Shown: piece after piece, positions 4,446-20,014 of the stretch
Numbering within the stretch: position 1 is the first letter of the stretch
Layout of the letters: each line of letters starts with the position of its first letter
From: a virus
DNA: 25,045 bases
Virus record (IMG/VR): IMGVR_UViG_3300042343_001366
Span: 1-25,045 of that record
Direction: 5' to 3' (one strand)
The notes under the pieces: model-generated
The model's database searches: none
What the model saw: only the letters and a program-made list of their open reading frames with translations
Told to the model about the DNA's origin: nothing
Made by a program: the position numbers and the translations under genes

Positions 4446-4475
4446 ATTTTAACACTCTCTTTGGGATCATGTCAA
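4446..4475 (-). promoter_or_regulatory. Sigma70-type promoter upstream of porin
   Basis: Minus strand TTGACA (4475-4470), an 18-nt spacer and TAAAAT (4451-4446). The -35 overlaps the last codons of the GT25 gene. A terminator hairpin follows at once (4438-4414), which makes its output to the porin gene uncertain. Confidence 0.45.
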
Positions 4476-5275
4476 GCATTTTGTTGTGGTGGGGGTGCAG
4501 AACTCTCAACGATTCTACCCAAATAAGGATCATAATTCATATGTTCCCTAATATCGATCGTAGCACCTTGTTGTTGCCAATAATTTAGCAAAGCATCGTG
4601 TGGTCCTTTATGGAAGATACTAAGGTGGTCAGTATGAATAGTAGACCCCATATTCAAGTTATACAAAAATAAAGGAATTGTATATGTCTTACCCGTTTCT
4701 AAAATTGTATCTTCAGAAACAGCCCTTGGTTTTACACCATTATCTAATTTAAATTTATCTCCACGAACATGATTTCTCATTAGTTTTGCAGCATGATGAC
4801 GAGTAATCAAATAAATTGCTGCAGAAAAATCATTAATAAACTTCAAATGCAATCTAACATGAATATCACCAGTACAGATAGTTGTTAGTTGCAAACAATC
4901 CCAATCATAAGGAGCAAGAGAGAAAAACTCTGTCCAAGTAAAGTTCCAATATTTTACAATATCAAAATTTACATCATCCTCAAGAATCAAACAATATTCA
5001 TCATCAGTCTCCTCATAAAAGGTTTTAATTGCCTTAAGATGAGACATACAACAACCAAGTTCATTTTGACTTACATTGTCAGGAATCCTTCCTTTAAGAT
5101 GACAAGCAACATCATCAACTCTACCATCATATCCAGAGATGCGAGTATGGTTTTCAATCTCCCAGTATTGGAACTGCTGCTCCATATACTCACGTCTTTC
5201 TGTATCGGCGTCTAAATTTAACCAGTAAATCTTCGGAAGACCTTTTAATTTATGTGCAGATTTATTTTTATCCAT
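4472..5275 (-). CDS. GT25-family glycosyltransferase
   Basis: The 267-aa product carries the LPS glycosyltransferase family 25 pattern: IYWLNLDADTERREYM (17-32) near the N-terminus, GCCMSHLKAIK, and YCLILEDDV with the acidic donor/metal motif EDD. GT25 enzymes move galactose or glucose from UDP-sugars onto lipooligosaccharide or glycoprotein. It is the last gene of the glycan operon, and its ATG lies 8 nt inside the preceding GT11 gene. The C-terminus (SSAPPPQQNA) is low-complexity and holds the -35 hexamer of the porin promoter. Sugar donor and acceptor cannot be told from sequence. Confidence 0.88.
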   Translation of the reverse strand: MDKNKSAHKLKGLPKIYWLNLDADTERREYMEQQFQYWEIENHTRISGYDGRVDDVACHLKGRIPDNVSQNELGCCMSHLKAIKTFYEETDDEYCLILEDDVNFDIVKYWNFTWTEFFSLAPYDWDCLQLTTICTGDIHVRLHLKFINDFSAAIYLITRHHAAKLMRNHVRGDKFKLDNGVKPRAVSEDTILETGKTYTIPLFLYNLNMGSTIHTDHLSIFHKGPHDALLNYWQQQGATIDIREHMNYDPYLGRIVESSAPPPQQNA

Positions 5276-6086
5276 TGGTAATTCTAGTCCAACTATCTGG
5301 GATTAAATCTTTAGTGTCATGATCTTTTGTGTATCCTTCCTTTCCAAACCACTGTGAAGGTGCAATGACTTTTTTATCTTCATTTGTTGATAACCAAGCT
5401 CCCCACCAAGAGAATGATGAGTTTGCAATAATAAAATCATCGCAAAGAGACATCAAACATAAGTCAACTCTGTTGTCTGTATTTTCGGAAATCATAAATC
5501 GATCATCAGAAAACAATTCTTGTTGGTTACACCAGGCAGGATCGTCAGAGAACACAATAACGTTTCTATCTTTATCAAAATGCTCCAATGCTGCCTCATA
5601 ATACTCCAAAGAACAAGGAGGATGATTTGCACTATTAGTTACATAATCTGTTCGACGAACATGTAAAGCAATCGGATTATCTACAGAAGAAATCATTTCT
5701 TTACAAGGAGAAAGAATTTCACCTTTAAAGGTAAACTCTTCTCTGATTTCATCTTCAATATGCTTGAAATATTTTTCTGTTTGAAAATATCCTTGAAGAC
5801 TTACGTGGTCTGGACAGAGATTAAAAAGTTCTTCATCAAAATGAAAAAATCTCTCATTAACAACAGGAGCGTGTCCATTGTTAAGGAGACCAACTTTTGT
5901 ATTCAGATTAAAAGAATCAAACAATTCAGTCCTTAATTTATTTCCAATTCCATCATCAACTACTTGAGTATGATTAGGGATACAAGTATCTGTTCCAATT
6001 TTTCTGGAAATACCTTTTAAGGCTGCATATTGGAACATCTGATTGGCAAACCTTCCCATTCGCCCAAGTGCATTAAATCCTATCAT
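5268..6086 (-). CDS. GT11-family glycosyltransferase (alpha-1,2-fucosyltransferase-like), copy 2
   Basis: The 272-aa protein has the three GT11 motifs: GRFANQMFQYAALKG (11-25), LHVRRTDYV (about 141-149), which binds the guanine nucleotide in the family, and DDFIIANSSFSWWGAWL near the C-terminus. Characterised relatives add L-fucose from GDP-fucose in alpha-1,2 linkage. It is paralogous to the gene at 6886-7740; the two share all three motifs but are clearly diverged. It is coupled by ATGA to the GT2-like gene upstream. No GDP-fucose synthesis gene is in the window, but a GDP-L-galactose-forming epimerase is, so L-galactose is a possible donor sugar. Confidence 0.9.
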   Translation of the reverse strand: MIGFNALGRMGRFANQMFQYAALKGISRKIGTDTCIPNHTQVVDDGIGNKLRTELFDSFNLNTKVGLLNNGHAPVVNERFFHFDEELFNLCPDHVSLQGYFQTEKYFKHIEDEIREEFTFKGEILSPCKEMISSVDNPIALHVRRTDYVTNSANHPPCSLEYYEAALEHFDKDRNVIVFSDDPAWCNQQELFSDDRFMISENTDNRVDLCLMSLCDDFIIANSSFSWWGAWLSTNEDKKVIAPSQWFGKEGYTKDHDTKDLIPDSWTRITNG

Positions 6087-6889
6087 TTCAATTGTGCTTT
6101 ACGTGTTTTTAGATAGTCTTGATTTTCATAATACTCTACCAATTGGTTTCTGTCAAATGTTTTAATTGTATTCCACAGAGTCCAATTGTTATTGAAGTTT
6201 GGATTACTAAACCAAGAGTTGTGAGTTCTACCGTGTTCCAAGTGATAGACATAGTTATCAATTCTTGCAATACGATTTCCCAAAGTACTCATACGAAAAT
6301 AAAACTCATCATCTTCGCATCCCCAGGAAACAAAGTTTTCATTCATCATATAGGAATCAATATACTTCTGCCTATTGATAAACTGTGTCCATCCAATTGT
6401 AGAGTTGGATAGTGTTTTATTTCTGTCAAGAACAGATATATCCAACTTATTCATAAAGTCTTCAAAGATATCCATATTGTATTCTGCTCTCCACTGATAG
6501 ATTCCACATCCATATGGATATACTACATCTGCATGTCCATCGTTAATTGCACCATATGCCTGGTGGTATGAAGACAGTGGAAGGATACAATCAGCATCAT
6601 AGTTTGCAACAACTTTTGTATCCGAAGCAACTATCAAATCATTTAAAACTTTACTCTTGCAGAATAAAGGATCATTATTTTCCTCATACAAATGAGTTAG
6701 ATTTTCTGTACTAACCCTTTTTTTAATCTCAGGTAGAGCTCTAAACTTAAATGTATTGCGACCAGAAACTTCCTTTACAATCACTTTTGCAGGAACGTAT
6801 GCAAGAAGATAAGAAACAGATGAAATAATATTTCTCAACCTATCTTCGGTTTCGATTCTAGTTGGAATTAAGAAAGTTAAATCCATCAT
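6083..6889 (-). CDS. GT2/GT7C-like glycosyltransferase
   Basis: The 268-aa protein begins DLTFLIPTR, the first strand of GT-A family transferases. It has an acidic DxD motif in VVANYDADC (about 110-118) and a C-terminal WGCEDDEFYFRMSTLG, the motif of the galactosyltransferase C-terminal (GT7C) region, followed by HLEHGRTH, whose histidines could bind metal. It should transfer a hexose or N-acetylhexosamine from a nucleotide sugar at the cytoplasmic membrane face. It is sandwiched between two GT11 genes with ATGA overlaps on both sides, suggesting ordered assembly of one branch. A sigma70-like promoter lies within its last codons (6128-6156). Confidence 0.82.
   Translation of the reverse strand: MMDLTFLIPTRIETEDRLRNIISSVSYLLAYVPAKVIVKEVSGRNTFKFRALPEIKKRVSTENLTHLYEENNDPLFCKSKVLNDLIVASDTKVVANYDADCILPLSSYHQAYGAINDGHADVVYPYGCGIYQWRAEYNMDIFEDFMNKLDISVLDRNKTLSNSTIGWTQFINRQKYIDSYMMNENFVSWGCEDDEFYFRMSTLGNRIARIDNYVYHLEHGRTHNSWFSNPNFNNNWTLWNTIKTFDRNQLVEYYENQDYLKTRKAQLK
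6128..6156 (-). promoter_or_regulatory. Internal sigma70-like promoter in the GT2-like gene
   Basis: Minus strand TTGACA (6156-6151), a 17-nt spacer and TATTAT (6133-6128), inside the 3' end of the GT2-like gene and about 40 nt before the downstream GT11 start. Good hexamers at ideal spacing, but in coding sequence, so chance is not excluded. Confidence 0.4.
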
Positions 6890-7740
6890 AGTCTTATAAT
6901 CTCTCTTTCAACAATATTCATACCAGGAACATAATATCCTTCAGTATCAATGTGAGAAAGAGCAGGTCCAAACCATGGTTTAGGAATAAAAATTTGCTTA
7001 TCCTTCTTTCCACCAACCCAAGCAATCCACCAAGAGAAAGTACTATTCGCAATAATGAAATCGTCACATAGAGTTCCAACAGCAAAATCAAAATGAGGTT
7101 TATACACATTTTCAGGTGCATCGTCATTGAATATAAAATTATCTCCAATAAAGACGGTTTTACACCATTCAATATCATCAGAAGTTATAACATATTGACG
7201 TTCCTTTCCAAGTTTTTCCATACACTCTCTATAGTATGATTCTACACAAGGAGGGTGATGATCTTGAAACTTAATGTAGTCACCCCGTCGAACACTTACA
7301 CATACAGGATTCTGGGTTCCTTTATCTTTATGAAACTTTGATGCTGCTTCAACTAGGTGCTCACGCACTACAAAGTCTTTACGGAGTTCTTCTTCAGCAT
7401 TTTTAAAATAGTGGTATGACTCAAAATGCCCAAGAAGACTTGAATTATCTGGACATTCATTAAAGAGTTCTTCACAAAATTCCGCTTGGTGTACATCAAT
7501 ATCATATCCATCAACTTCACCAAATCTACCATCCAGATAGTTCATCTCAAAAAGATGCTGAAGTTGATGATATACAGTTACAGTATTTCCATCAACTTGT
7601 TGATCAAACCAAGTTGCCTTTGAATGATCGGGAATACAGAAGTCATATCCCATATTCTTAGCAATCCCAACTAAAGCAGCATACTGAAATAATTGATTTC
7701 CCAGTCTACCCTTTTGTCCCAACTTATTCATACCAATCAT
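6886..7740 (-). CDS. GT11-family glycosyltransferase (alpha-1,2-fucosyltransferase-like), copy 1
   Basis: From ATG at 7740 the product is 284 aa, with a GGAG site 7 nt upstream; a TTG at 7746 is a weaker alternative. The GT11 motifs are GRLGNQLFQYAALVG near the N-terminus, CVSVRRGDYI for the nucleotide site, and LCDDFIIANSTFSWWIAWV near the C-terminus. Family members are GDP-fucose-dependent alpha-1,2-transferases. It follows the cupin gene and overlaps the next gene by ATGA. A paralogue lies two genes downstream (5268-6086), so two similar linkages or two acceptors are likely. GDP-L-galactose from the epimerase at 15998-17098 is a candidate donor. Confidence 0.9.
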   Translation of the reverse strand: MIGMNKLGQKGRLGNQLFQYAALVGIAKNMGYDFCIPDHSKATWFDQQVDGNTVTVYHQLQHLFEMNYLDGRFGEVDGYDIDVHQAEFCEELFNECPDNSSLLGHFESYHYFKNAEEELRKDFVVREHLVEAASKFHKDKGTQNPVCVSVRRGDYIKFQDHHPPCVESYYRECMEKLGKERQYVITSDDIEWCKTVFIGDNFIFNDDAPENVYKPHFDFAVGTLCDDFIIANSTFSWWIAWVGGKKDKQIFIPKPWFGPALSHIDTEGYYVPGMNIVEREIIRL

Positions 7741-7742
7741 AA

Positions 7743-8096
7743 TCAATCTCCTTTAATAATTCTGTAACTATCCTCATCAAAGTGCTGAGTAGAAAATTCA
7801 AATAATTCTGTATCCTCTAGAGCAATCATCTGATGACGAAGACCAGGATAAATGTGAAAATTATCTCCCTTCTTTAAGAAAATAATATTAGCAAGTTCTC
7901 TATTATCATTATCAGAATATAACAACTTTATGCATCCAGATTGAATGTAAAAAGTTTCATCTTTTAATTTATGATAATGCCAAGAGCATTTTCTTCCCTG
8001 TGCGAAGTATAAAAGTTTACCACAGTATTGCTCATTGTTTACAATCCATTTTTCAAATCCCCATCCCTTAGGGACAAATTTAATTGAAGAACTCAT
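7743..8096 (-). CDS. Cupin-fold protein, mannose-6-phosphate isomerase type II-like
   Basis: The start is ATG at 8096 (MSSSIKFVPKGWGFEKWIV), giving 117 aa; a longer ORF runs into the HAD gene and is less likely. The W-G-x-E-K-W start and the two cupin boxes, CSWHYHKLKDETFYIQSG and KKGDNFHIYPGLRHQMIALE, give the metal ligands H-x-H-x(5)-E and a later H. This resembles the C-terminal cupin of mannose-6-phosphate isomerase/GDP-mannose pyrophosphorylase proteins. It may isomerise a sugar phosphate or epimerise a nucleotide sugar. A mannose branch would feed GDP-mannose to the 3,5-epimerase, but this is inference. It overlaps the HAD gene by 17 nt. Confidence 0.75.
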   Translation of the reverse strand: MSSSIKFVPKGWGFEKWIVNNEQYCGKLLYFAQGRKCSWHYHKLKDETFYIQSGCIKLLYSDNDNRELANIIFLKKGDNFHIYPGLRHQMIALEDTELFEFSTQHFDEDSYRIIKGD

Positions 8097-8412
8097 TAGA
8101 ATTGATACCCTTATCGTCAATGTAAAAGTCGCCAGAGGGTTTACCCATGTGAAGTTCGTGAAACTTGCAACCCCAATTTATGAGTTGATTATAAGTTAGA
8201 TTATAAAATTCTTTATGTGCTAACATCCTAGAATCACCGTGCCTTCCCATACCTCTAGCAGTGAGATATACGATAGTATGTCCCTCTTCGTATAGTTTAT
8301 TTATTTTTTCAATTCTACCTGGGATTGGAACACTAATAGAGTAATCGCCATCGTGATGCATATTACTTGGTTTATCGCAAATTGTCCCATCAATGTCAAC
8401 AACGTATTTCAT
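8080..8412 (-). CDS. Small HAD-superfamily phosphatase
   Basis: The 110-aa product opens KYVVDIDGTICD, HAD motif I with nucleophile D6 and acid D8. Motif II is YLTARG, and motif III/IV lies in the conserved K-P-x-x-D-F-Y-I-D-D stretch. The protein is a minimal HAD with little cap, of the kind found in capsule and LPS loci. In a heptose pathway a phosphatase must remove the C7 phosphate from heptose-1,7-bisphosphate (GmhB role), and this enzyme lies directly after the nucleotidyltransferase, so that role is a reasonable guess; it is not close to GmhB by motifs. SD AAGGAG is 6 nt from ATG; it overlaps both neighbours by 17 nt. Confidence 0.85.
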   Translation of the reverse strand: MKYVVDIDGTICDKPSNMHHDGDYSISVPIPGRIEKINKLYEEGHTIVYLTARGMGRHGDSRMLAHKEFYNLTYNQLINWGCKFHELHMGKPSGDFYIDDKGINSNEFFN

Positions 8413-8800
8413 GAATTCTCCTTATAATATCAGTAGTAGAATATCCACCAACTCTATCTAAGAATCTTACTTCCTTAGCAAATTGTCTACCAACAACATC
8501 ACCATTTCTCCAGTCACCACCTACAAGGAGAATGTCTGGAGAATAAAGTTGAATTAGATTCTCAAGTTCTTGACGACTACCAAATGGAATTACAATATCA
8601 ATATGTTTATTTGATTCCAACATTGCCTTACGAAAAGACAATGAATTTACTGGACGATTAGGTCCTTTATCATTACGAACTTTTTGGTCCTCATCGATAC
8701 CAACAATCAAACGATTACCAAGAGATTTGGCAATCTTGAATAATTCCATATGTCCTGGATGCAATATATCAAAGCATCCATTTGTCCATACTGTAATCAT
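8396..8800 (-). CDS. Heptose-1-phosphate nucleotidyltransferase (HldC / HldE C-terminal-like)
   Basis: The 134-aa protein has TNGCFDILHPGHMELF (6-21) with the HxGH nucleotide-binding signature of the cytidylyltransferase-like superfamily, a conserved GIDEDQKVRNDKGPNRPV segment, VVIPF-like and LLVGGDW segments, and a C-terminal YSTTDIIRRI matching the S-T-T-x-I-I motif of RfaE domain II. The RfaE-II family joins heptose-1-phosphate to ATP (ADP-heptose) or a related nucleotide. Size equals a stand-alone domain (HldC type), not the fused HldE. The kinase half is encoded two genes upstream. ATGA overlap with the epimerase gene couples their translation. Confidence 0.9.
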   Translation of the reverse strand: MITVWTNGCFDILHPGHMELFKIAKSLGNRLIVGIDEDQKVRNDKGPNRPVNSLSFRKAMLESNKHIDIVIPFGSRQELENLIQLYSPDILLVGGDWRNGDVVGRQFAKEVRFLDRVGGYSTTDIIRRIHEIRC

Positions 8801-9579
8801 TTAAGGTAGTCCTCTACGGGCATAAACTTATAATCCCCCCATTCACATTTTGCTTTAGTGTAGTCTTGATACTTACCAACCAAATGGTCAGGGAAAGGAA
8901 TATAGTTAATATCACCATTATACTTCTTTGCAACACATTCTGCAACATGTTGGAAACTCACAGGATTGCTAGTTCCTAGATCATAGATTCCAGATCCTTT
9001 CTCATTGTTAAGGACAACATCAACAACGTCATTAACACAAATAAAATCTCTCAAAAACTTATCCGATCCTTCAAACAAATTAAGTTTTCCAGTCTCTTTT
9101 ATTTGCTTTGCAAATTTACTTACTGGACTTGCTTGGTCTCCCTTACTGTCTTCACCATTACCATAGACATTAAAATATCTAAAACCTTGTATCAAAGAGA
9201 AGTCATTAATATGATCCTGAACCCAATAATCTATTTGTAGTTTTGAAATAGCATAGTAGTTCAATGGATTGAAGATGCCTTGAAGATTTCCATAAACAGA
9301 TGCTGAGGATGCATACTTAACTGGAATTTTATATTCAATGGCTTTCTCAAATAATCTAAGCGTGAAATCAACATTATATTTGTGTATCTTGTTTATGTCA
9401 GTTTCAACTGTGCTTGAGATAGCACCCTGATGAAGTATTAGTTGCACTTTATCCCAGTCATTGTATTCATTTAAAAAATTAAATGCTCCACCAATACCAA
9501 CCCGATAAAGGTTCTCTTTATCAAGTTTATCCAAAAAAGCATTTCCAATAAATCCATTGTAACCAGTCAGAATAATCAT
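8797..9579 (-). CDS. hldD: ADP-glycero-manno-heptose 6-epimerase-like (HldD)
   Basis: The 260-aa short-chain dehydrogenase has the Rossmann GYNGFIGNA motif (6-14), HQGAISSTVETD, SSASVYGN, catalytic YYAISK (YxxxK), GFRYFNVYG and FEGSDKFLRDFICVNDVVDV; the last two blocks are diagnostic of HldD/RfaD. HldD converts ADP-D-glycero-D-manno-heptose to the L-glycero form using bound NADP. The protein is about 50 residues shorter than bacterial HldD (around 310), the deficit falling in the mid and N-terminal loops, but all catalytic blocks remain. It sits between the kinase and the nucleotidyltransferase genes, with ATGA overlaps on both sides, completing an ADP-heptose module. Confidence 0.9.
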   Translation of the reverse strand: MIILTGYNGFIGNAFLDKLDKENLYRVGIGGAFNFLNEYNDWDKVQLILHQGAISSTVETDINKIHKYNVDFTLRLFEKAIEYKIPVKYASSASVYGNLQGIFNPLNYYAISKLQIDYWVQDHINDFSLIQGFRYFNVYGNGEDSKGDQASPVSKFAKQIKETGKLNLFEGSDKFLRDFICVNDVVDVVLNNEKGSGIYDLGTSNPVSFQHVAECVAKKYNGDINYIPFPDHLVGKYQDYTKAKCEWGDYKFMPVEDYLK

Positions 9580-10307
9580 AGGACTGCTACTCCTTTTTGA
9601 GTTACTACTTTAGATGCACATTCATTTGCATATACAATACTCTTATCAATATTGTCTGTTTCTATAAATTTTACTACTAGTGCTGCCATGAAAGTATCAC
9701 CAGCACCAGATAGATCTTTAACTTCTACTTTTTTAGTTGGGTATCTTTTTCCTTTATACTCACATCCAAGACCCCCCATAGTATGGATGATCTTTTCCTT
9801 TATCTCACTTGTCAAATACTTTTCAGAATTACGATACTCATAATCATTGATTTTAATAAACCTTGCTTCCTTCACCCAATCACCAAGAATTTTCTTTGTA
9901 TCTATAAACACATTACTATGATTAGAACAAATATATGAAATGTCATCTTCAAGAAGAAACCCTTTATTATAATCTGAAATAACGACTAAATCATAATCCA
10001 AATCAAGATCTTTAACATTTAATCTAGGAGTTGGTTGTGTTGTATCTACTCGAAAGAACATATGATTACTCTCTCGATGCACATATCTTGTTTTTACAAT
10101 CTCATACCAATTAGAATTGGTTGTTATGTTAATTACCTTTCCAGAAAGACTCTCAATATTTCTACGAACATTACCAGCCATCCCAGGGTTTTCCCTCTGG
10201 TCTACAATATTCAGAACGGGAACAGGTGCTTCTGGGCAAAGTCTATTGGAATCACAATAGACAAATACATCTCTACAAGTCTCACCAATAACTAGTATAC
10301 TACTCAT
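9576..10307 (-). CDS. hldA: Heptose-7-phosphate 1-kinase (HldA / HldE N-terminal-like)
   Basis: The 243-aa PfkB-family protein opens ILVIGETCRDVFVY and continues CPEAPVPVLNI, GMAGNVRRNIESL and KTRYVHRESNHMFFRVD, the blocks that mark the RfaE/HldE kinase domain rather than ribokinase. VVISDYNKG and KDLSGAGDTFMAALV supply the phosphate-binding and catalytic GAGD motif. It should phosphorylate D-glycero-D-manno-heptose-7-phosphate at C1. It is about 70 residues shorter than the usual kinase domain, a compaction also seen in its HldD neighbour. It starts with an ATGA overlap on the GT9-like gene. GmhA, which makes its substrate from sedoheptulose-7-phosphate, is not in the window. Confidence 0.88.
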   Translation of the reverse strand: MSSILVIGETCRDVFVYCDSNRLCPEAPVPVLNIVDQRENPGMAGNVRRNIESLSGKVINITTNSNWYEIVKTRYVHRESNHMFFRVDTTQPTPRLNVKDLDLDYDLVVISDYNKGFLLEDDISYICSNHSNVFIDTKKILGDWVKEARFIKINDYEYRNSEKYLTSEIKEKIIHTMGGLGCEYKGKRYPTKKVEVKDLSGAGDTFMAALVVKFIETDNIDKSIVYANECASKVVTQKGVAVL

Positions 10308-11116
10308 GGTCTTCCAATGTATGGTTTATAAAATTGCTTTACTTCTTCGGGAGAATGTGGAAGGAATGCTCGAAATAACCAATTATTCCATCCAGTAAAG
10401 TTTGGTGATGTTTTAATAAACAAGTTTTCTTTTGGAAGTGCTTTTGCCGCAAGAATACTACAGAAAGAATCGCAACCAGCATAATAATTACAATTGGCAA
10501 CCAAGTCTTTTACTTTAATAATGGGTTCATTAATAAACTGCTCTTGATTCTCAATTGCAAGATCTACTTTATGATCGGAGATAATCTTGACACAATAACC
10601 AGTTTCTCTTGATAACTGATTCACAAACTCAACATCATCATCAGTAATGTGTGCGATGTCACTTCTTGGTCTGGTTGATGTTGGGTAATGAAAGACGATG
10701 TAGTTGTCATCAATTCTATCGGCGTGTTTGATAAAAGACGATTCTTGGAATGGTCTTGTGTCATCCAGAAACATACTTACAGCATCAACTATCTGAAGAT
10801 TTTGATTATCCCAATCACTCTCGATACCAAATAGTTTTAACCCAACTTTAAAGTTACGTTCAAAGTCAGGTCTAAAATGCCAAAAAGGGACAGCAATAGG
10901 ATCAAGCGTTGCCATTGCTGCCTTTCCAGTTTCATCATCAATAACATATTGAGAGATAAGATTTGGATATGATGGGTTATTCTCCAACAAATCTTTCATC
11001 ACATATCCAAATCTACATGCCCAATAGATTTCAGTTATGCTTTCTTTCTCATCTTTTGTAAGAATGGAATCGAGAAAAAATAAATCCCCGATTCCTAGGG
11101 ACACATATGTTTTCAT
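10304..11116 (-). CDS. GT9-like (heptosyltransferase-type) glycosyltransferase, copy 2
   Basis: The 270-aa protein begins KTYVSLGIGDLFFLDSIL, matching the G-x-G-D loop at the start of ADP-heptose:LPS heptosyltransferases. A C-terminal YAGCDSFCSILAAKALPKENL corresponds to their donor-binding G-x-D-S-x-x-x-x-x-A-A region. Two Rossmann-like halves fit a GT-B fold. It is a diverged paralogue of the gene at 13957-14664, which has GIGDVFFLQKV at the same place. Being next to the ADP-heptose genes, heptose transfer is the natural guess. Its ATG overlaps the TGA of the thiamine enzyme gene by one base. Confidence 0.7.
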   Translation of the reverse strand: MKTYVSLGIGDLFFLDSILTKDEKESITEIYWACRFGYVMKDLLENNPSYPNLISQYVIDDETGKAAMATLDPIAVPFWHFRPDFERNFKVGLKLFGIESDWDNQNLQIVDAVSMFLDDTRPFQESSFIKHADRIDDNYIVFHYPTSTRPRSDIAHITDDDVEFVNQLSRETGYCVKIISDHKVDLAIENQEQFINEPIIKVKDLVANCNYYAGCDSFCSILAAKALPKENLFIKTSPNFTGWNNWLFRAFLPHSPEEVKQFYKPYIGRP

Positions 11117-12324
11117 CAGTGGAACTTTTTGTGCTCTACAATCATCACAGGACCATCACTATCTTTGGCATACCTATACATATCCAAAGCTTCCTCTGGA
11201 GTTTGAGGGTCAAGAACAGGGAAATCTACCAACTCTTGGAATACTTTTGTAAAGTCCTGAGAATGAGTAGGTCCAGAATAGAACAGTCCACCATCATCAA
11301 CAACAGTTTTTAGAATGATAGGAACTTTAAATTCTCCGTGTGAGATTCTTTCAATTTTATCTACATGATTGCCAATGGCATCGGCAGCAACCAACATAAA
11401 GTCATGCCGTTCAAAATAAACAACTGGTTTAAAACCTTCAAATGACATACCAATTGCAAGACCAACCATTAGATTTTCTGCAACGGGAGTTTCAATCTTT
11501 TGGTCATCAGGAACATTCTTGAGAGTTCCCATTGCATCACCAGGAATGAGACTATATCCAATAAAGATTGCACCATCTTCACCAAGTTCAGTCATACCCT
11601 GAGTTACTGCATCCTTGAACTTTATATCAAGGGGATGATAATCAACTGGTTTTGGATACTCGCGCTTAGGAAGAAGAGGGAAATACTCCTCATCAGTTCG
11701 CATAATTTCCTTCATCACCTTCAAGTCGGCAAAGTTACCAGTACGAATGTGAGGGCGAGTCTTAGTGTAATGGTAGCGAACAACGCAAGAAGGCCAATCA
11801 AGGTCTTTATCAGTTCCCCAGCGACGTTCTTTTGGTGCTTCTACTGCCATTCTGTCATCTTCTATCACAAAGGTGCAGGGAAGATCGAATCCATCCACAT
11901 AACGCACTGCTTCTGCAAAGTGCCCAGTATCTTCAGTTCCATCACCAAGGAAGCACCAAACCTTTTGAGTTGATCCCTTACGCTTCAATGCCCAAGCAAT
12001 GCCTACAGCAATTGCAACAGGTCCACCAATAATAGCAGAGACGTAGAAGTTACGTTCACGATCAAACATAAACATACTTCGACCATTAAGAATTTTATTC
12101 TCAACTTCTTCTGGAGGAAGACCGTGCAACAAGGCATGGTACATATTTCTATGAGTGGATAAAACGTAATCCCCCTCATTAATGTTCGAAAAAATATCAA
12201 TCAATTGCTCTTCATTACCACCAGGAAGGTGGAGGGCAAAAGGCAAACGACCAGCATCGTGATGTTCTGCGATCTTATCTACAAAAGAACGAAGACCTTC
12301 AGGCGTCCAATCAGTTCCTCTCAT
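11116..12324 (-). CDS. Fused E1alpha/E1beta-like thiamine-diphosphate enzyme, compact
   Basis: The 402-aa protein joins two halves of 2-oxoacid dehydrogenase E1. Residues 50-230 resemble E1alpha, with the FDRERNFY region and the ThDP/Mg motif beginning GDG at 127-129 and ending EDD at 155-157, where relatives have NN. Residues 231-402 resemble E1beta's pyrimidine-binding domain, with E283 in TPVAENLMVGLAIG as the expected cofactor-activating Glu and THSQDF. The transketolase C-terminal domain that binds E2 is missing, and the total is far below alpha plus beta (about 650). No E2 or E3 gene is seen. A carboligase or decarboxylase acting on a sugar precursor is more likely than a dehydrogenase complex. 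Confidence 0.85.
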   Translation of the reverse strand: MRGTDWTPEGLRSFVDKIAEHHDAGRLPFALHLPGGNEEQLIDIFSNINEGDYVLSTHRNMYHALLHGLPPEEVENKILNGRSMFMFDRERNFYVSAIIGGPVAIAVGIAWALKRKGSTQKVWCFLGDGTEDTGHFAEAVRYVDGFDLPCTFVIEDDRMAVEAPKERRWGTDKDLDWPSCVVRYHYTKTRPHIRTGNFADLKVMKEIMRTDEEYFPLLPKREYPKPVDYHPLDIKFKDAVTQGMTELGEDGAIFIGYSLIPGDAMGTLKNVPDDQKIETPVAENLMVGLAIGMSFEGFKPVVYFERHDFMLVAADAIGNHVDKIERISHGEFKVPIILKTVVDDGGLFYSGPTHSQDFTKVFQELVDFPVLDPQTPEEALDMYRYAKDSDGPVMIVEHKKFH

Positions 12325-12327
12325 CTA

Positions 12328-13338
12328 TTATACTCCTATTTCGACAATAATTCTACCAGCATTTCCTGACTTAAGCAAGTCGAATGCATCATTTACTTCA
12401 TCTAGTTTGAAACGATGTGTAACAAATTGCTTGATATCTAACAAACCTTCTTTATGCATACGAACATAACGAGGGATATCTTCTGCAGGATTGGTCTTTC
12501 CACCTTGAGTTGCTTTAATACTTTGACCCATACCATTAAAAAGGTTAAGTGCATTCATAATCTCAATACCACGTCCAGGAGCTGGTTGCCCAACTAGAAC
12601 CATACGCCCTTTACCAGAAAGTTTTGATGCACACTCACTAATAACTTCAGGAATACCTGTAGTATCAATAATTACATCTACACTTTCCTCCAAATTGTTG
12701 ATAGAGTTAGTAAAGAGAGATGCTCCAGCAGTAAAGCAAAGATCTCTCTTTGTCACATTATTATCAATTGCATAGATTGGGCACGCACTCTTAAGTGCTG
12801 CTGCTTGAATCAAGTTCAATCCAACACCACCACATCCAACAACAGCAACGCTTTCACCAAACTTAAGATCAATCTCATTATCAATAATTCCCATTGCAGT
12901 CGTCAGAGCACAACCGAGAATTGCACACAAATCTTCTGGAGTATCTTGAGGGACAGTAGTTAGTCTATTTTCGGATACAATAGAATACTCACTTAAAGTA
13001 GTTACTTTACCACTACTCATCGATTTTCCATCGAGAACATATGATGGAAATGGTGCTTCAATTCCAGTTCCAGGTCTCCAATGCATCACAACCTTATCAC
13101 CAACTTTAACTGTGGTTACACCAGGTCCAACTTCTTCAACAATGCCACATCCTTCATGACCCATTAGATGAGGAAGAAACTTTGCATTTCCCTTATGACC
13201 ACGAATTTCATGGAGTTGTGCGCCACACAAACCACTTACAAGTATCTTAACAAGAACCTGACCCACCTTTAGTTCAGTCAATTCAACATCTCTAATCGCA
13301 AGAGGTGCATCAATTTTTTCTAATACAACAGCTTTCAT
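12328..13338 (-). CDS. Zinc-type medium-chain dehydrogenase
   Basis: The 336-aa MDR-family protein has catalytic zinc ligands C38 (SGLCGAQLHE) and H61-E62 (MGHEGCGIVEEVG), plus a Rossmann motif VAVVGCGGVGLNLIQAA (about 165-181). The four-cysteine structural zinc loop of classical alcohol dehydrogenases is absent, since the stretch after VMHW is P/G-rich without Cys. It should oxidise or reduce an alcohol/ketone with NAD(P). It begins with an ATGA overlap on the methyltransferase gene and is followed 3 nt later by the thiamine enzyme, so the two probably act in succession on one sugar or on a small acyl/ketol substituent. Confidence 0.88.
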   Translation of the reverse strand: MKAVVLEKIDAPLAIRDVELTELKVGQVLVKILVSGLCGAQLHEIRGHKGNAKFLPHLMGHEGCGIVEEVGPGVTTVKVGDKVVMHWRPGTGIEAPFPSYVLDGKSMSSGKVTTLSEYSIVSENRLTTVPQDTPEDLCAILGCALTTAMGIIDNEIDLKFGESVAVVGCGGVGLNLIQAAALKSACPIYAIDNNVTKRDLCFTAGASLFTNSINNLEESVDVIIDTTGIPEVISECASKLSGKGRMVLVGQPAPGRGIEIMNALNLFNGMGQSIKATQGGKTNPAEDIPRYVRMHKEGLLDIKQFVTHRFKLDEVNDAFDLLKSGNAGRIIVEIGV

Positions 13339-13964
13339 ACTTTTACTTTTTTAAAAACACAAGTCAAAATGTTAGATTCTTCTTCCTTATTTTTACGAAT
13401 AGTATCTTCTACATTGCTAGAAGATATAATTTCATATCCCATTCTGTTCATAAATGTAACCAATGATTTTTTATCAAAGTGCCAAAGGTGTTCATTTGGT
13501 CTCCTATGTTTCCAATTCTCAAACCACTCATCGTTTTTATAGTGGCAATGAGGAACAGAAATGCACACAGCACTACACTTCAAATCACGAACAAAATCAA
13601 TGTCTTCAAAGTGTTCGAGAGAATCAAAGAAAGTAATTACATCATAAAAATTTTCTGTAATACTTTCAACTTGAGTACATCCATTTGGAATAGGATAGGT
13701 TGAAATATCATACCCATAACATTCGGGAACAATATTATTACAGACTTTCAAAAAAGATCCATCACCATAACCAACATCAAGAATACTTTTTGGAACTCGA
13801 TTAAGAGATCCAATAATATTACCTAAACGCAAATATCCCATATAAGTTGGAAGTTCTCCATACTTAACATAGCGAGTATTCACATAATCTTTATCATAAT
13901 CGATGTGTTGTTTATCTACCTGATAGACAATTCCATCTATGTTCTTTGAATAATTTTCAAGCAT
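13335..13964 (-). CDS. Class I SAM-dependent methyltransferase
   Basis: The 209-aa protein has motif I SILDVGYGDGSFLKVC (about 60-75) and a motif II/III region VITFFDSLEHFEDI, followed by CISVPH, as in Methyltransf_23-type enzymes of polysaccharide and ubiquinone pathways. These O- or C-methylate sugars at an early or capping step. The N-terminal region (NTRYVKYGELPTYMGYLRLG) resembles sugar methyltransferases with an additional substrate-binding lid. It overlaps the upstream GT9-like gene by 8 nt and the dehydrogenase gene by 4. Substrate unknown. Confidence 0.85.
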   Translation of the reverse strand: MLENYSKNIDGIVYQVDKQHIDYDKDYVNTRYVKYGELPTYMGYLRLGNIIGSLNRVPKSILDVGYGDGSFLKVCNNIVPECYGYDISTYPIPNGCTQVESITENFYDVITFFDSLEHFEDIDFVRDLKCSAVCISVPHCHYKNDEWFENWKHRRPNEHLWHFDKKSLVTFMNRMGYEIISSSNVEDTIRKNKEEESNILTCVFKKVKV

Positions 13965-14664
13965 TTCTGTATTCAGTAACTTTGCTAAAGATGTCTATCA
14001 CATCTTTATATTGTCTCTCGTCCTGAGGATAATAGTATATCTCTCCTTTAGTGTCAATGACATCTATAATAAAACACATTCCTGTTGGAATAGTATGAAT
14101 TTCTTTTGCATTCTCCCATACTTTAATCCAATCAAATAAAGTATATTCTTCATAGATTTGATTAAAAATTGCAGGATACTTAAACTCCAAATTATTAAAT
14201 TTACCGGTCTTAACTATATTAGTATTGATAATATCGTTTACATAAACATATTCACTATCATCAGTAAGACCTAAAACTTCATAATAAAGTTTGTTTTCTT
14301 TTTCATAGTTGCGATTGAATTTAAAATACTTTCCCCAGTCAGTGTGATCAAGTCCAACTAAACCAAATTTTGCAGACATAATCCTTGTGGGATCAGTATT
14401 GAAAGTTCTATCTGCAGTTGAAGCATCTATGTAAATAAATTCATCCGTTTCACCAAATCCAGCATAATTAAACAACTCTTTTCCTGGAAACTGATCACTC
14501 AATTTATACCATTCAATATCAGGTATGTATTCAGAAACCCAGAAAATATCATCTCTAAGTGCCCAAATAATTTTGCAACCTTTTTCCCGATAAGTGTGTG
14601 CTACTTTTTGAAGAAAGAAAACATCACCAATCCCCGCAGGTTGTTTAATTATGCAAGGTTTCAT
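13957..14664 (-). CDS. GT9-like (heptosyltransferase-type) glycosyltransferase, copy 1
   Basis: Taking ATG at 14664 (MKPCIIKQPAGIGDVFFLQK), the protein is 235 aa. The GIGD loop followed by a hydrophobic helix is the N-terminal donor of the GT9 group, and IWALRDDIFWVSEYIPDI continues that fold. The C-terminal half (IHTIPTGMCFIIDVIDTKG) keeps the position of the G-x-S-x-x-x-x-x-D loop in degenerate form. It is shorter than bacterial heptosyltransferases (about 320-350 aa). The gene starts one base after the preceding stop. The paralogue at 10304-11116 argues for two similar additions. Confidence 0.62.
   Translation of the reverse strand: MKPCIIKQPAGIGDVFFLQKVAHTYREKGCKIIWALRDDIFWVSEYIPDIEWYKLSDQFPGKELFNYAGFGETDEFIYIDASTADRTFNTDPTRIMSAKFGLVGLDHTDWGKYFKFNRNYEKENKLYYEVLGLTDDSEYVYVNDIINTNIVKTGKFNNLEFKYPAIFNQIYEEYTLFDWIKVWENAKEIHTIPTGMCFIIDVIDTKGEIYYYPQDERQYKDVIDIFSKVTEYRNA
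14029..14057 (-). promoter_or_regulatory. Internal sigma70-like promoter in the GT9-like gene
   Basis: Minus strand TTGACA (14057-14052), a 17-nt spacer and TATTAT (14034-14029), about 65 nt before the methyltransferase start. Could boost the distal glycan genes; in coding sequence, so unproven. Confidence 0.4.
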
Positions 14665-14665
14665 A

Positions 14666-15208
14666 TCACTCGACGTAAGCAACTAAAACATAATCGTCCG
14701 TTGGATTAATAGACTTATAATACTTAAGCGTATAATCAGGATTTATTGAAAGTAGTTTCTCTTCCAATTCCTTTTCTTTACCAAGGAAATATACGGGGAT
14801 ATCATCAATCACAATGGTATGATTCTTGATTTCATTCTGTTCAATCAAATCAAGTTCTTCAAACGTAGGAACTCCACCACCCTCTCCGTGAGCATCTAGC
14901 CAAAAGCAAGTTCTTTTGTCCACTTGCTTCATCATATCAGCAAAGCAATCACTGGAATCACCCAACCAAAGATTTACATTATCATTGTCTTGGAATTTTT
15001 CCATACAATGCTGATAACGATCCTCCATAAATTCACAACTGTAAATTTGCTCAAACCCAAGATCCAAAGCAAACTGAACGCTACCACCAAAATGAGTTCC
15101 AGTCTCTACAAAATACTTACACTCTTTACCGATTCCAAGATCTCTAAAGATATAATAGCAAACAGGTCTACCTTCAGACACTGCCAAATCAAATACTTCT
15201 TTTGTCAT
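14666..15208 (-). CDS. SAM-dependent methyltransferase-like protein
   Basis: The start is ATG at 15208, overlapping the stop of the GT10 gene (ATGA), which gives 180 aa beginning MTKEVFDLA. FVETGTHFGGSVQFALDLG is a class I methyltransferase motif I variant (E-T-G-T-x-x-G), IYSCEF is the acidic end of strand 2, and FWLDAHGEGGG is the post-II motif. Proteins with the E-T-G-T-x-x-G and W-L-D-A-H signatures occur in O-antigen loci and act as sugar methyltransferases. The same pattern appears in TylF/MycF-like and FkbM-like groups; I cannot choose between them. Cytoplasmic, no membrane segment. Confidence 0.72.
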   Translation of the reverse strand: MTKEVFDLAVSEGRPVCYYIFRDLGIGKECKYFVETGTHFGGSVQFALDLGFEQIYSCEFMEDRYQHCMEKFQDNDNVNLWLGDSSDCFADMMKQVDKRTCFWLDAHGEGGGVPTFEELDLIEQNEIKNHTIVIDDIPVYFLGKEKELEEKLLSINPDYTLKYYKSINPTDDYVLVAYVE

Positions 15209-16011
15209 GCGAAATAATTCTCCCAAATAAAATCTTCAAGCACTTCCATTTTTTTAGCTTTTTCTAAGTTCTCTTCGATAGCATCCATTTTACTGTAGTA
15301 GATATCATCTGAGACCTCAAACTCTTCACTTAGATCAATGATGCCATCCTTATTAAAATAATCCCCAATATCAGGAGCACCATAATAAACGGGAATAGTT
15401 CCAGTGGCAAAACAATCTAAGATTTTTTCAGTAAAGTAAGTTTCGTATGAAGCGTTCTCAATTGCAATTGAGAACATATAATCACACAAACCTTCCTCCT
15501 TAAACTTAATTTCGGTCGGAAACCCACGACCATAGAAATCAACCTGATCCTTAAATCTTTCAACCCATTCAAGACGCTTTCTATGCCCCTCACACATTGT
15601 TTTATTTGAGGAAATCATCGAAATCATCTTAGACTTCTCATATACCTTTGGTTGTTTAATCCAAGTTCCCTGTGCAGGAACCCATTTAAATTTTTCTGGA
15701 TTAATCTTAATTAAGTCTTTGTTATGAGTAAAGATAATATCAAAAGAATTCAATACTCTTTCTCTGCCTGCACCTTTTACAAAATCAGTAATTTGTGGAA
15801 GAATTGCAGCAGACTCAAGAATCCAAGCATACTTTGGACCCTTAACATCATCATCAAATGCATAACCTATGGCAGCATCAATGTAAAAGGTTCCATCTCC
15901 ACCTTCACTTACCCATTCAGTTTTCTTCGACTCTTTACCCCAAACAGAACACTTTGGAGCATCGGCATAGTCAAAGGTATTGCCTACAAGATTAAACTTA
16001 TGCCTTGACAT
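15205..16011 (-). CDS. GT10-family glycosyltransferase (alpha-1,3-fucosyltransferase-like)
   Basis: The 268-aa product holds the GT10 signature in its C-terminal half: IAIENASYETYFTEKILDCF, then ATGTIPVYYGAPDIGDYFN, with the E-N-x-S/A-Y-x-x-Y-x-T-E-K core that binds the GDP-sugar. Relatives such as Helicobacter FucT transfer L-fucose from GDP-L-fucose in alpha-1,3/4 linkage. The N-terminal half, which recognises the acceptor, is diverged as usual. It starts 14 nt inside the GDP-mannose 3,5-epimerase gene. Because the epimerase makes GDP-L-galactose, which differs from GDP-L-fucose only at C6, L-galactose may be the natural donor sugar. Confidence 0.9.
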   Translation of the reverse strand: MSRHKFNLVGNTFDYADAPKCSVWGKESKKTEWVSEGGDGTFYIDAAIGYAFDDDVKGPKYAWILESAAILPQITDFVKGAGRERVLNSFDIIFTHNKDLIKINPEKFKWVPAQGTWIKQPKVYEKSKMISMISSNKTMCEGHRKRLEWVERFKDQVDFYGRGFPTEIKFKEEGLCDYMFSIAIENASYETYFTEKILDCFATGTIPVYYGAPDIGDYFNKDGIIDLSEEFEVSDDIYYSKMDAIEENLEKAKKMEVLEDFIWENYFA

Positions 16012-17098
16012 TTATTTGTTCCTCAATCCACCTATACGTTTTTGCGATTCCTTCTTCTAAGGTTTGGGAGTAATCCCATCCAAGTTTCTCACGAATTAAA
16101 TCGTTATTAGAGTTACGACCACGAACCCCAAGGGGACCATCAATATGATTCTTCTCCACATTCTTACCAGCAACTTTAGCAGCAGTTTCTACAAGTTGAT
16201 TGATGGTTACCATTTCCTCAGAACCAATATTCACAGGACCTTGGAAATTAGAGTCCATCAAACGACGGGTTGCTTCAATACATTCATCAATATACAGGAA
16301 GGAACGAGTCTGTTTTCCATCACCCCACACATCAATTGTGCCACCTTCTTTTGGAAGATATGCCACTTTACGACAAATTGCAGCTGGTGCTTTTTCTCTA
16401 CCTCCTTCCCAAGTTCCCTCTGGTCCAAAGATATTATGATACCGAGCAACCCTAACAGGAATACCATGGTTACGTGAATAAGCGAAAAACAACCGCTCTG
16501 AGAACAGTTTCTCCCAACCATATTCAGAATCTGGATTGGCAGGGTATGCTGATTCTTCACGACAATCTGGATTATCTGGGTCTAATTGATTGTGCTCTGG
16601 ATACATGCAGGCAGATCCAGAGTAGAAAATTTTAGTCTGGTAATCTAGAACAGGACGGTTACAATTAGTCCATTCTTTTTCAACACCATTAAATGTTTCA
16701 TTCAGTTGACGTTGTGCTTCAAGGACATTGAGGTTAATTGTTGCGGAGTTATGCATAATATCTGCATCGTTCTCTCCAGTGAACACAAATCCAGCACCAC
16801 CCATATCAGCAGCGAACTGATAGATCTCGTGAAAAGGAAGAATGTAACGATAAGGAACATTAGCGTAAAAATTACCTTGCTCTCCTTTGAATTCAAGAAC
16901 ACGGCGAACAAAACTCATGTCGCGCAAGTCTCCCTGAATAAATTCATCTGCTTCAGAGACAGAAAACTCAGGATACTTAAGGTCCACACCACGAACCCAA
17001 TACCCCTCTGATTTCAACCTCTTCACCATATGACTTCCAATAAACCCACCAGCACCAAGTACAAGTGCTGTTTTCGTATAATCACTCATAGATTGCAT
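15998..17098 (-). CDS. gme: GDP-mannose 3,5-epimerase-like
   Basis: The 366-aa protein closely follows plant GME: GAGGFIGSHMVKRL (16-29), the YSGSACMYPE segment with C164, YGWEK (Y193, K197), RYHNIFGPEGTWEGGREKAP with K236, then DGKQTRSFLYIDECIE, VNIGSEEMVTINQL and GPLGVRGRNSNNDLI. The Cys and Lys match the acid/base pair of the 3,5-epimerisation; Tyr and Lys are the dehydrogenase pair. GME makes GDP-L-galactose and GDP-L-gulose from GDP-D-mannose. Compared with plant GME there is extra sequence at about 71-85 and 131-153. The start is the ATG at 17098 with AGGGAG 5 nt upstream. First gene of the glycan operon. Confidence 0.9.
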   Translation of the reverse strand: MQSMSDYTKTALVLGAGGFIGSHMVKRLKSEGYWVRGVDLKYPEFSVSEADEFIQGDLRDMSFVRRVLEFKGEQGNFYANVPYRYILPFHEIYQFAADMGGAGFVFTGENDADIMHNSATINLNVLEAQRQLNETFNGVEKEWTNCNRPVLDYQTKIFYSGSACMYPEHNQLDPDNPDCREESAYPANPDSEYGWEKLFSERLFFAYSRNHGIPVRVARYHNIFGPEGTWEGGREKAPAAICRKVAYLPKEGGTIDVWGDGKQTRSFLYIDECIEATRRLMDSNFQGPVNIGSEEMVTINQLVETAAKVAGKNVEKNHIDGPLGVRGRNSNNDLIREKLGWDYSQTLEEGIAKTYRWIEEQINVKA

Positions 17099-18061: not shown

Positions 18062-18062
18062 G

Positions 18063-18135
18063 TGCTCCTTGCGTGGATCGAACACGCCTCAGGCGAATTA
18101 TGAGTTCGCTGCATTCACCAGATTGCTAAAGGAGC
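18063..18135 (-). tRNA. tRNA-Met (CAU), probably elongator
   Basis: The 73-nt sequence has acceptor GCTCCTT/AAGGAGC, anticodon stem GCGAA/TTCGC, loop CTCATAA with anticodon CAU, and T-arm GCGTG-TTCGATC-CACGC. A G1-C72 pair argues against initiator tRNA. As an Ile-UAU tRNA is also present, Met is more likely than lysidine-modified Ile. No encoded CCA. Confidence 0.93.
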
Positions 18136-18139
18136 AAGG

Positions 18140-18211
18140 TAGGAGTACTGGGAGTTGAACCCAGACTACCCCGTTATAAGCAGGGCGCTCTAACCATTAA
18201 GCTATACTCCC
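18140..18211 (-). tRNA. tRNA-Ile (UAU)
   Basis: 72 nt. Acceptor GGGAGTA/TACTCCT (one G-U), anticodon stem CCCTG/CGGGG, loop CTTATAA with anticodon UAU, T-arm CTGGG-TTCAACT-CCCAG. UAU anticodons are rare because bacteria usually read AUA with lysidine-CAU. In an AT-rich phage it would serve the phage's AUA codons directly. Confidence 0.92.
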
Positions 18212-18218
18212 AAGAAAA

Positions 18219-18449
18219 TCACGAACCTTCTTCGTGGTCGGTGTGGAGACGTATCAATTCATCATCCACGTTAGATTCTATTGCGTACTTTATGGTTTCA
18301 TTGTAAGGAACTATCACAGCGTTTTTATTTCCATCTCGTATAATAAATGATTCACCGTTCTCAACTCTTTCTATAAGTTTGTCAAAATCTTTTTGAAACT
18401 CTTCAACTGTAAATGATTGAAGTTCGTTTAGTTCTTGATACATTTTCAT
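18219..18449 (-). CDS. Phd/YefM-like antitoxin-type protein
   Basis: From ATG at 18449 the product is 76 aa. Residues about 10-50 (LQSFTVEEFQKDFDKLIERV, then ENGESFIIRDGNKNAVIVPY) match the Phd/YefM fold: a Q/S-F-x-x-x-F start, an amphipathic helix, E-N-G-E, the strand FIIRDGNKNAVIVPY and a variable acidic C-terminus. Family members bind DNA as dimers and neutralise a Doc, YoeB or VapC-type toxin. No toxin gene lies beside it; neighbours are tRNAs. It may block a host toxin during infection. It lies between tRNA-Pro and tRNA-Ile, under the promoter at 18560-18588. The ribosome-binding site is poor; ATG at 18443 is an alternative. Confidence 0.75.
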   Translation of the reverse strand: MKMYQELNELQSFTVEEFQKDFDKLIERVENGESFIIRDGNKNAVIVPYNETIKYAIESNVDDELIRLHTDHEEGS

Positions 18450-18466
18450 AAAGTGATTTTTATGAG

Positions 18467-18538
18467 TCGGGGCGACAGGGATCGAACCTGTGACCTCTGG
18501 TTCCCAAAACCAGCATTCTACCGCTGAACTACGCCCCG
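18467..18538 (-). tRNA. tRNA-Pro (UGG)
   Basis: 72 nt. Acceptor CGGGGCG/CGCCCCG, anticodon stem CTGGT/ACCAG, loop TTTGGGA with anticodon UGG, T-arm ACAGG-TTCGATC-CCTGT. Its 5' end overlaps the stop region of the 41-aa membrane protein gene. Confidence 0.95.
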
Positions 18539-19537: not shown

Positions 19538-19560
19538 TGGGATTTTAGTAGTAGTACTAC

Positions 19561-19591: not shown

Positions 19592-19662
19592 TCAAATGTC
19601 AGTGTTTTGTAACACTACTATACAGAAAACTGAAGAAAATATTAAATCAGTATTCTATGTAA

Positions 19663-19747: not shown

Positions 19748-19753
19748 AAAGAT

Positions 19754-19999: not shown

Positions 20000-20014
20000 A
20001 ATTCATAAATCCTG

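Follow-up and report, generated by a model that had tools for sequence, protein, structure and literature searches.

Published accounts of cyanophage "LPS genes" date back to 2010 or earlier. Clusters of such lipopolysaccharide (LPS) genes were described in S-SM2, S-SSM7 and P-SSM2, seven of them co-occurring in all three phages; in the passages available from that paper no pathway is given, and the function of the genes is left undecided (Sullivan et al. 2010, PMC3037559). In the accessible text of three further papers, heptose genes including a phosphoheptose isomerase are named in SynMITS9220M01 (PMC7378029), rfaE in pelagimyophages (PMC7029224), and a GDP-mannose 3,5-epimerase together with a mannose-6-phosphate isomerase in S-SCSM1 (PMC9602691). 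Neither a five-gene heptose pathway nor a cupin heptose isomerase was found in the open-licence literature, and either may still be in print. Here we analyse a block of glycan genes in virus record IMGVR_UViG_3300042343_001366 (the window: the whole 25,045-base stretch, a fragment representing part of a phage genome), in which five genes, encoding HldA-, HldC- and HldD-like enzymes, a small HAD phosphatase (mini-HAD) and a cupin, may specify a route to a nucleotide-activated heptose.

The best DNA match of the window among a phage collection was Synechococcus phage S-SM2. At positions 4472-17098, 17 minus-strand open reading frames (ORFs) form an operon-like block (Table 1). From their coordinates, 15 of the 16 junctions overlap by 1-41 nt, the remaining one being a 3-nt gap between the genes of a thiamine enzyme (TPP) and a zinc-type alcohol dehydrogenase (ADH). 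Orthologues of all 17 genes were found in the S-SM2 LPS cluster (SSM2_192 to SSM2_216), in the same order and at 65-91% protein identity, so the block is no artefact of ORF calling. The S-SM2 cluster additionally holds SSM2_201, 204-209 and 212, with 191 beside it, whereas in the window the cluster is directly followed by a porin gene. The block is thus a colinear, shorter version of a published cluster, which is not new, and, judged by sequence homology, it belongs to the S-SM2 type of auxiliary glycan operon carried by T4-like cyanophages.

A sequence-only reading of this DNA had described a phage glycan block of fifteen coupled genes at 4472-17098, with GME-like (GDP-mannose 3,5-epimerase), HldA/HldC/HldD-like, HAD, cupin, dehydrogenase and thiamine enzymes. 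The minus-strand block was recovered in the ORF listing, the family searches and the S-SM2 orthologues, each enzyme had a family or profile match, and the coupling held, for 17 ORFs rather than fifteen. As an open frame, the last ORF of the block (GME) runs from a TTG at 17248, and the endpoint chosen in that reading was its ATG at 17098. The set had also been called unexpected, which does not stand: S-SM2 has nearly the same cluster, published in 2010 (PMC3037559), and, in the text available from them, PMC7378029 and PMC9602691 add further cases. The comparison of cyanophage gene content suggested as a check yielded the 17 S-SM2 orthologues and a five-gene unit that recurs in other phages.

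The best explanation of the block as a whole, to which we assign a probability of roughly 0.5, is an S-SM2-type glycan operon with a GDP-L-galactose arm and a five-gene activated-heptose arm. In the first arm, GME would convert host GDP-mannose to GDP-L-galactose, for use by the fucosyltransferase-family enzymes of glycosyltransferase families 10 and 11 (GT10, GT11). In the second, the cupin, which resembles phosphomannose isomerase (PMI), would isomerise sedoheptulose 7-phosphate from the host Calvin cycle to heptose 7-phosphate, the step of GmhA; the HldA-like kinase would phosphorylate C1, the mini-HAD would remove the 7-phosphate (the step of GmhB), the HldC-like enzyme would add the nucleotide and the HldD-like enzyme would epimerise C6. 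The product of an ORF with a predicted GT9-like fold, orfX1, would then transfer the heptose. Interconversion of fructose 6-phosphate and mannose 6-phosphate and that of sedoheptulose 7-phosphate and heptose 7-phosphate are one reaction on homologous sugars, which would make a PMI-like cupin a natural stand-in for GmhA. The parts given to the cupin and the mini-HAD, the substrates, the nucleotide and the donor of each transferase are what we infer from gene content, homology, kept catalytic residues, a predicted fold, tight co-inheritance and the scarcity of GmhA and GmhB in related virus records, all obtained by computation. A phage-encoded route to a nucleotide-activated heptose, with the cupin for GmhA and the mini-HAD for GmhB, is the likeliest reading of the five genes. 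That these enzymes (the PMI-like cupin and a HAD of ~110 residues among them) form a self-contained route, putting heptose on virions or on the envelope of hosts whose LPS is normally free of it, falls somewhat short of an even chance in our estimate.

The kinase, nucleotidyltransferase and epimerase are, on alignment, clear homologues of the HldA, HldC and HldD families, and the catalytic positions of kinase and epimerase are kept. In a comparison with Prochlorococcus HldE, the RLxPxxPVPV motif positions and GAGD of the kinase were invariant, as were Y109, K113 and K146 of the epimerase among its aligned homologues; we take these to be residues of the two active sites. The epimerase had E. 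coli HldD (1eq2) as its top PDB match, at E 2.4e-37.

To see how these genes are distributed, 84 viral contigs were gathered with the window TPP and kinase proteins as queries, a sample biased to viruses bearing these two genes. Presence was called at score thresholds of our own setting; truncated or near-identical contigs were numerous, and, the contigs not being independent, co-occurrence is given as counts and not as Fisher p-values. The viral counts exclude 18 cellular loci (L114-L131, L-numbers being the locus labels of this analysis). All seven of ADH, TPP, HldA, HldD, HldC, HAD and cupin were present in 39 of the 84 contigs. HAD and cupin occurred together in 46, the cupin alone in 2, the HAD alone in 0 and neither in 36. 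Because of the near-identical and shortened contigs, the 76 contigs with HldA were collapsed to 29 kinase lineages, genes being pooled over lineage members: the set HldD, HldC, HAD and cupin was then complete in 12 lineages, short of one gene in 3, partial in 2 and missing altogether in 12. Where at least 6 kb were available on either side of HldA (45 contigs), 30 contigs had all seven core genes and 7 had ADH, TPP and HldA only.

The same linkage was seen in the phage collection. The kinase was found in 31 records, comprising 12 named phages (several with duplicates) and 4 single-cell virus records, and all 31 were among the 35 records with the cupin. The four cupin records free of an HldA-like kinase were those of Bellamy (2 records), SynMITS9220M01 and MH319741; in Bellamy and SynMITS9220M01 the cupin has a GHMP kinase and an NTP-transferase of another kind for neighbours, so that the cupin outlasts an exchange of kinase. 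The five genes HldA, HldC, HldD, HAD and cupin are adjacent in P-SSM2 and S-CAM1, and lie within a few kb, with other ORFs between them, in S-SSM7 and Sf-FS3, the epimerase being on the opposite strand in some of these four phages; the calls were partly made by annotation, kinase and epimerase of P-SSM2 and S-SSM7 being aligned by sequence. In S-CAM3 the nucleotidyltransferase of the unit is not annotated. According to the text available, the seven shared genes of Sullivan et al. are T4-GC 260, 265, 266, 304, 305, 307 and 308; by the S-SM2 table these comprise GT11, epimerase, GT25, HldC, HldA, cupin and HldD. The window has all but one of these seven, and the mini-HAD (GC 306) is outside that list. 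That HldA, HldC, HldD, mini-HAD and cupin travel together is new here. A full seven-gene module was also seen in L116, a metagenome-assembled contig titled Bifidobacterium breve, the label or binning of which is doubtful.

Among the 17 proteins of the block, from a window that is a fragment of its phage genome, there was no match to SIS/GmhA and no homologue of GmhB, the window HAD matching the EcbF-BcbF model instead. Since both homologues are absent from it, the block is not the known ADP-heptose pathway. The earlier prediction that the set makes both GDP-L-galactose and ADP-heptose is accordingly upheld for the presence of GME and of the HldA/C/D-like genes, and not for the known pathway. 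In 48 records chosen from the 84 viral contigs, many of them fragments, GmhA was detected once (L109, 52 bits) and GmhB in none. With the broader SIS_2 model, one sub-threshold match (SynMITS9220M01) was obtained in 12 complete phage genomes, 11 of which have the cupin.

Both proposed substitutes have intact candidate sites. The metal site of the cupin is complete, with H48, H50, E55 and H96 invariant among 18 homologues, and its weak profile matches to lyxose and mannose ketol-isomerases come amid other cupins. The mini-HAD has a profile match to 9iqw, "Capsule biosynthesis protein" (E 1.8e-21), and its residues D6, D8, T10, T51, K91, D95 and D100 are invariant. A host-family set was also searched (201 genomes of the family around a Prochlorococcus genome, that genome included, with E-value limits varying by gene). 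In three of these genomes a mini-HAD domain is fused to GmhA, and in four, as in virus L109, it is fused to an HldC-like domain adjoining GmhA; the gene preceding GmhA was a GHMP kinase in both loci tested (one host, virus L109). These fusions tie the HAD to heptose activation and make it a candidate phosphatase. Within phage units the HAD usually has the cupin as its neighbour, just as it has GmhA in the host-family fusion genomes, and in virus L092 the order cupin-HAD-HldC is the host order with the cupin replacing GmhA.

In ten phage regions, existing records name the HAD "phosphoheptose isomerase" (9 of 10) and the cupin "cysteine dioxygenase" (7 of 10); both names were judged wrong from the domains of the window homologues. 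In two of the ten the cupin is called "putative nucleotidyltransferase", a name unfit for the domain of the window homologue. Virus L109 carries, at 9151-12203, a second heptose operon of host type (GHMP kinase, GmhA-like gene, HAD-HldC fusion and a short-chain dehydrogenase/reductase) behind its cupin-type unit.

Several results weigh against the proposed route. None of the three Hld homologues reaches its NCBIfam curated cut-off, and two of them, the kinase and the epimerase, are short. The HldC-like protein had an ethanolamine-phosphate cytidylyltransferase as its top PDB sequence match (E 7e-21); TagD-like CDP-glycerol synthesis is nevertheless less likely, since TIGR02199 scored 117.9 bits against 70.2 bits for the glycerol-3-phosphate cytidylyltransferase model, and, given the resemblance to cytidylyltransferases, sequence leaves room for adenine or another nucleotide in the product. 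Other cupins score equal to or above the ketol-isomerases in the cupin profile search. Of the 29 lineages, 12 keep the kinase but have none of HldD, HldC, HAD and cupin, although some of their contigs are truncated. The 48 records are often fragmentary, so that GmhA may lie beyond them, and virus L109 holds the cupin and a GmhA-like gene together. In the available text of the papers concerned, gmhA serves as a phage marker gene in a marine virome study (PMC9238414), and the phosphoheptose isomerase named in SynMITS9220M01 (PMC7378029) corresponds to a phage in which the SIS_2 match is sub-threshold. For orfX1, considered below, no Glyco_transf_9 match was obtained at E <= 1, and its query-normalised template modelling scores (TMq) to GT9 structures are low, 0.40-0.50, with a large root-mean-square deviation (rmsd).

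The host, finally, could supply GmhA and GmhB. Activated heptose would then be made with these host enzymes, while the substrate of cupin and mini-HAD would be a different sugar (for instance mannose 6-phosphate, in the supply of GDP-mannose, or a keto-sugar), an arrangement that we hold to be unlikely but well worth weighing. A GmhB-HldE-HldD-GmhA island is present in the host-family genomes L118, L172 and L173; cupins occur in further sugar pathways (a NeuB fusion, L145); and the window cupin resembles the annotated mannose-6-phosphate isomerase of S-SCSM1 (28% identity over 92 residues, profile comparison probability 94), an activity that would feed GDP-mannose and GME. Yet just 46 of the 201 host-family genomes had a match to GmhA, which exceeded the cut-off in 1 and fell below it in 45, the HAD is the partner of GmhA or HldC in fusions, and the cupin is in 48 of the 84 contigs against 30 for GME. 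HldC was found in 39 of the 201 genomes (3 over cut-off), the HAD in 11 (E <= 1e-5), the TPP enzyme in 2 (E <= 1e-30) and the cupin in 10 (E <= 1e-8), its single strong match being on a viral-looking contig. Heptose genes are therefore patchy in the hosts, not absent from them. The sequence-only reading had pointed to a reported lack of heptose in marine Synechococcus LPS: the part available from a review repeats this for strains WH8102 and CC9311, whose LPS is without heptose and 3-deoxy-D-manno-octulosonic acid (PMC4515613), but some picocyanobacteria encode heptose genes. Among the cyanobacterial-family contigs, that of L163 and L147 (G106:C3) has many small ORFs, HldC, HAD and a phage-type cupin, and looks like a phage contig.

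The TPP protein consists of an E1 alpha-like and a Transket_pyr domain, fused, without the transketolase C domain; its GDG (127-129) and E283 were invariant across 15 aligned homologues, and homologues were found in 57 viral loci. Across the viral loci ADH mostly adjoins TPP, as it does in Prochlorococcus and Patescibacteria loci. As part of the proposed operon, the two would be linked accessory genes, probably making or altering a sugar ahead of the kinase. An improbable alternative is a modified or branched higher sugar, which ADH would oxidise and to which the TPP enzyme would add a two-carbon unit, with kinase, nucleotidyltransferase and epimerase acting after. E1-like enzymes adding two-carbon branches exist in avilamycin biosynthesis (AviB1/AviB2). 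In 15 of the 84 contigs (7 of the 45 with long flanks), and also in Patescibacteria loci, ADH, TPP and HldA stand free of the remaining core genes; and three types of TPP enzyme fill the TPP position, namely the fused mini-E1 (72 of 84 contigs), a transketolase in split form (L109, L099) and an E1 with alpha and beta separate (L092, L108), with an E1 alpha also at this place in L100, where the alpha half alone was tested. Against a branched sugar, P-SSM2, S-CAM1 and S-SSM7 have Hld genes, but the phage records matching at least 80% of the TPP enzyme were those of S-SM2 and P-TIM68 only, and L097 has the order HldA-HldC-HldD-cupin-HAD with no ADH within 20.7 kb and nothing matching TPP across its 51.6-kb record. 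A replacement of GmhA by TPP and ADH was dropped: in the Prochlorococcus island L118, ADH and TPP lie beside GmhB, HldE, HldD and GmhA, and there are phages with Hld genes but no TPP.

A transferase for the heptose is predicted next to the kinase. The AlphaFold2 model of orfX1 has a mean predicted local distance difference test (pLDDT) of 92.7 and a predicted template modelling score (pTM) of 0.90, and the 30 best rows of a Foldseek search of the PDB were all WaaC, WaaF, TibC or 3tov, that is, heptosyltransferases or GT9 (best E 3.0e-6). In VIA-align, WaaC gave Z 12.4 with rmsd 3.9 over 226 aligned residues, and the first other row Z 9.3. The low TMq and large rmsd would suit a two-domain protein opened differently. 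By sequence profile there was no PDB match at E <= 1, and the sole Pfam row was Gam, at E 0.027, under cut-off. A GT9-like (heptosyltransferase) fold is thus predicted for orfX1 from its model. For orfX2 (mean pLDDT 81.5), the top Foldseek match was the GT9 structure 3tov (E 1.5e-5, TMq 0.53), VIA Z was 10.1-10.2 for TibC and 3tov and 10.2-10.9 for plant NDH-PSI chains, and neither a meaningful Pfam match nor anything useful from the PDB sequence profile search was obtained; its model makes it a probable GT-B transferase, GT9-like less clearly than orfX1. In two viruses without HldC, HAD and cupin (L027, L024), a GT9 gene lies close behind the kinase. The tally of seven transferases of five families in the sequence-only reading is reached only if ORFs 10304-11116 and 13957-14682 are counted as GT9-like, and of its two methyltransferases that at 13335-13964 stands (PF13489), the presumed second one, 14666-15226, having no Pfam match even at E <= 1.

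For the GDP-L-galactose arm, the best PDB matches of GME (query taken from 17104) were Arabidopsis GDP-mannose 3',5'-epimerase. Aligned with this enzyme, GME keeps the SSAC, YxxxK, GGREKAP and RGRN motifs, and thus what we take to be the catalytic C, Y, K, K and R; it is clearly, on this alignment, a GDP-mannose 3,5-epimerase homologue with catalytic residues kept. At E <= 1e-50, 37 phage records were matched, and identity to the S-SCSM1 gene annotated GDP-mannose-3',5'-epimerase was 61.5%. Over the 84 viral contigs, GME and GT10 were both present in 21, GME alone in 9, GT10 alone in 5 and neither in 49, a co-occurrence to be expected if fucosyltransferase-family enzymes take an L-galactose donor.

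Alternatively, the genes might be non-functional, decayed remnants, or cargo that fills up a large phage head, a "stuffer DNA" possibility raised in the available part of Sullivan et al. 2010 (PMC3037559). This seems to us very improbable, as the 17 ORFs are intact at 65-91% protein identity to S-SM2, catalytic residues are invariant over distant homologues, and co-inheritance is near all-or-none.

We infer that the acceptor of the glycan is either the host envelope or the virion. An OprB/SLH-type porin gene lies directly behind the cluster, at 2894-4387 of the window, and in 5 of the 84 viral contigs a porin homologue follows GT25 at a distance of 85-104 bp, one of these contigs (that of L062) near-identical to the window; porin and cluster hint at a surface-remodelling pair, pointing to the host surface. 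In P-SSM2, S-CAM1, S-CAM3, S-SSM7 and Sf-FS3, tail-fibre or neck genes are found near the unit, which points to the virion. Family searches and a hydropathy scan of the 17 block proteins revealed no exporter, polymerase or lipid carrier; the scan exceeded 1.6 only in TPP and ADH, both of soluble enzyme families.

Table 1. ORFs of the glycan block in order of transcription, with support for each assignment.
Feature	Position	Strand	Support
GME, GDP-mannose 3,5-epimerase homologue, 366 aa from ATG	15998..17098	-	Arabidopsis enzyme, PDB match E 2e-80; Pfam family Epimerase
GT10 (fucosyltransferase-family) glycosyltransferase	15205..16011	-	PF00852 E 4.3e-10
Conserved protein, methyltransferase-like by eye only	14666..15226	-	orthologue SSM2_194, 76%
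orfX2, probable GT-B transferase, GT9-like	13957..14682	-	predicted structure
Methyltransferase	13335..13964	-	PF13489 E 3.6e-19
ADH, zinc-type alcohol dehydrogenase family	12328..13338	-	PF08240 E 1.9e-16, PF00107 E 6.4e-11
TPP, fused mini-E1 thiamine enzyme	11116..12324	-	PF00676 E 5.4e-13, PF02779 E 1.3e-10
orfX1, predicted GT9-like transferase (heptosyltransferase fold)	10304..11116	-	predicted structure
HldA-like (PfkB) kinase, 243 aa, short form	9576..10307	-	NCBIfam TIGR02198 E 7.6e-32, below cut-off
HldD-like epimerase (Pfam family Epimerase), 260 aa	8797..9579	-	NCBIfam TIGR02197 E 1.4e-59, below cut-off
HldC-like nucleotidyltransferase (CTP_transf_like)	8396..8800	-	NCBIfam TIGR02199 117.9 bits, E 3e-34, below cut-off
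Mini-HAD phosphatase, candidate GmhB substitute	8080..8412	-	EcbF-BcbF model E 1.1e-8, below cut-off
Metal-site cupin, candidate GmhA substitute	7743..8120	-	Cupin_2 E 1e-6; listed start TTG, ATG at 8096
GT11 glycosyltransferase	6886..7746	-	PF01531 E 6.2e-25
GT7-like/GT-A glycosyltransferase (Glyco_transf_7C)	6083..6889	-	PF02709 E 1.9e-6
GT11 glycosyltransferase	5268..6086	-	PF01531 E 1.5e-30
GT25 glycosyltransferase	4472..5275	-	PF01755 E 5.8e-11

Elsewhere in the window, 12 tRNA genes lie within 18062-22678. An overlap with tRNA-Pro is shown by the ORF at 18219-18569 and, in S-SM2, by a gene annotated as Phd-like antitoxin; a 318-aa ORF at 20469-21425 had no Pfam match (E <= 1) and no PHROG match (E <= 0.001).

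The five-gene unit leads to a defined chemical prediction, the conversion of sedoheptulose 7-phosphate to activated heptose, together with two candidate new enzyme functions. If true, it would tie glycan building by the phage to the Calvin cycle of its host, and a heptose mark, absent from the LPS of two marine Synechococcus strains in the review text cited above, would make the choice between host surface and virion measurable. Set beside known systems, the window GME is homologous to the plant GDP-mannose 3,5-epimerase and carries insertions relative to it. Of the ADP-heptose biosynthesis pathway, the block has three of the five enzyme families, plus a predicted GT9-like transferase; where that pathway uses GmhA and GmhB, the block has a cupin and a mini-HAD instead.

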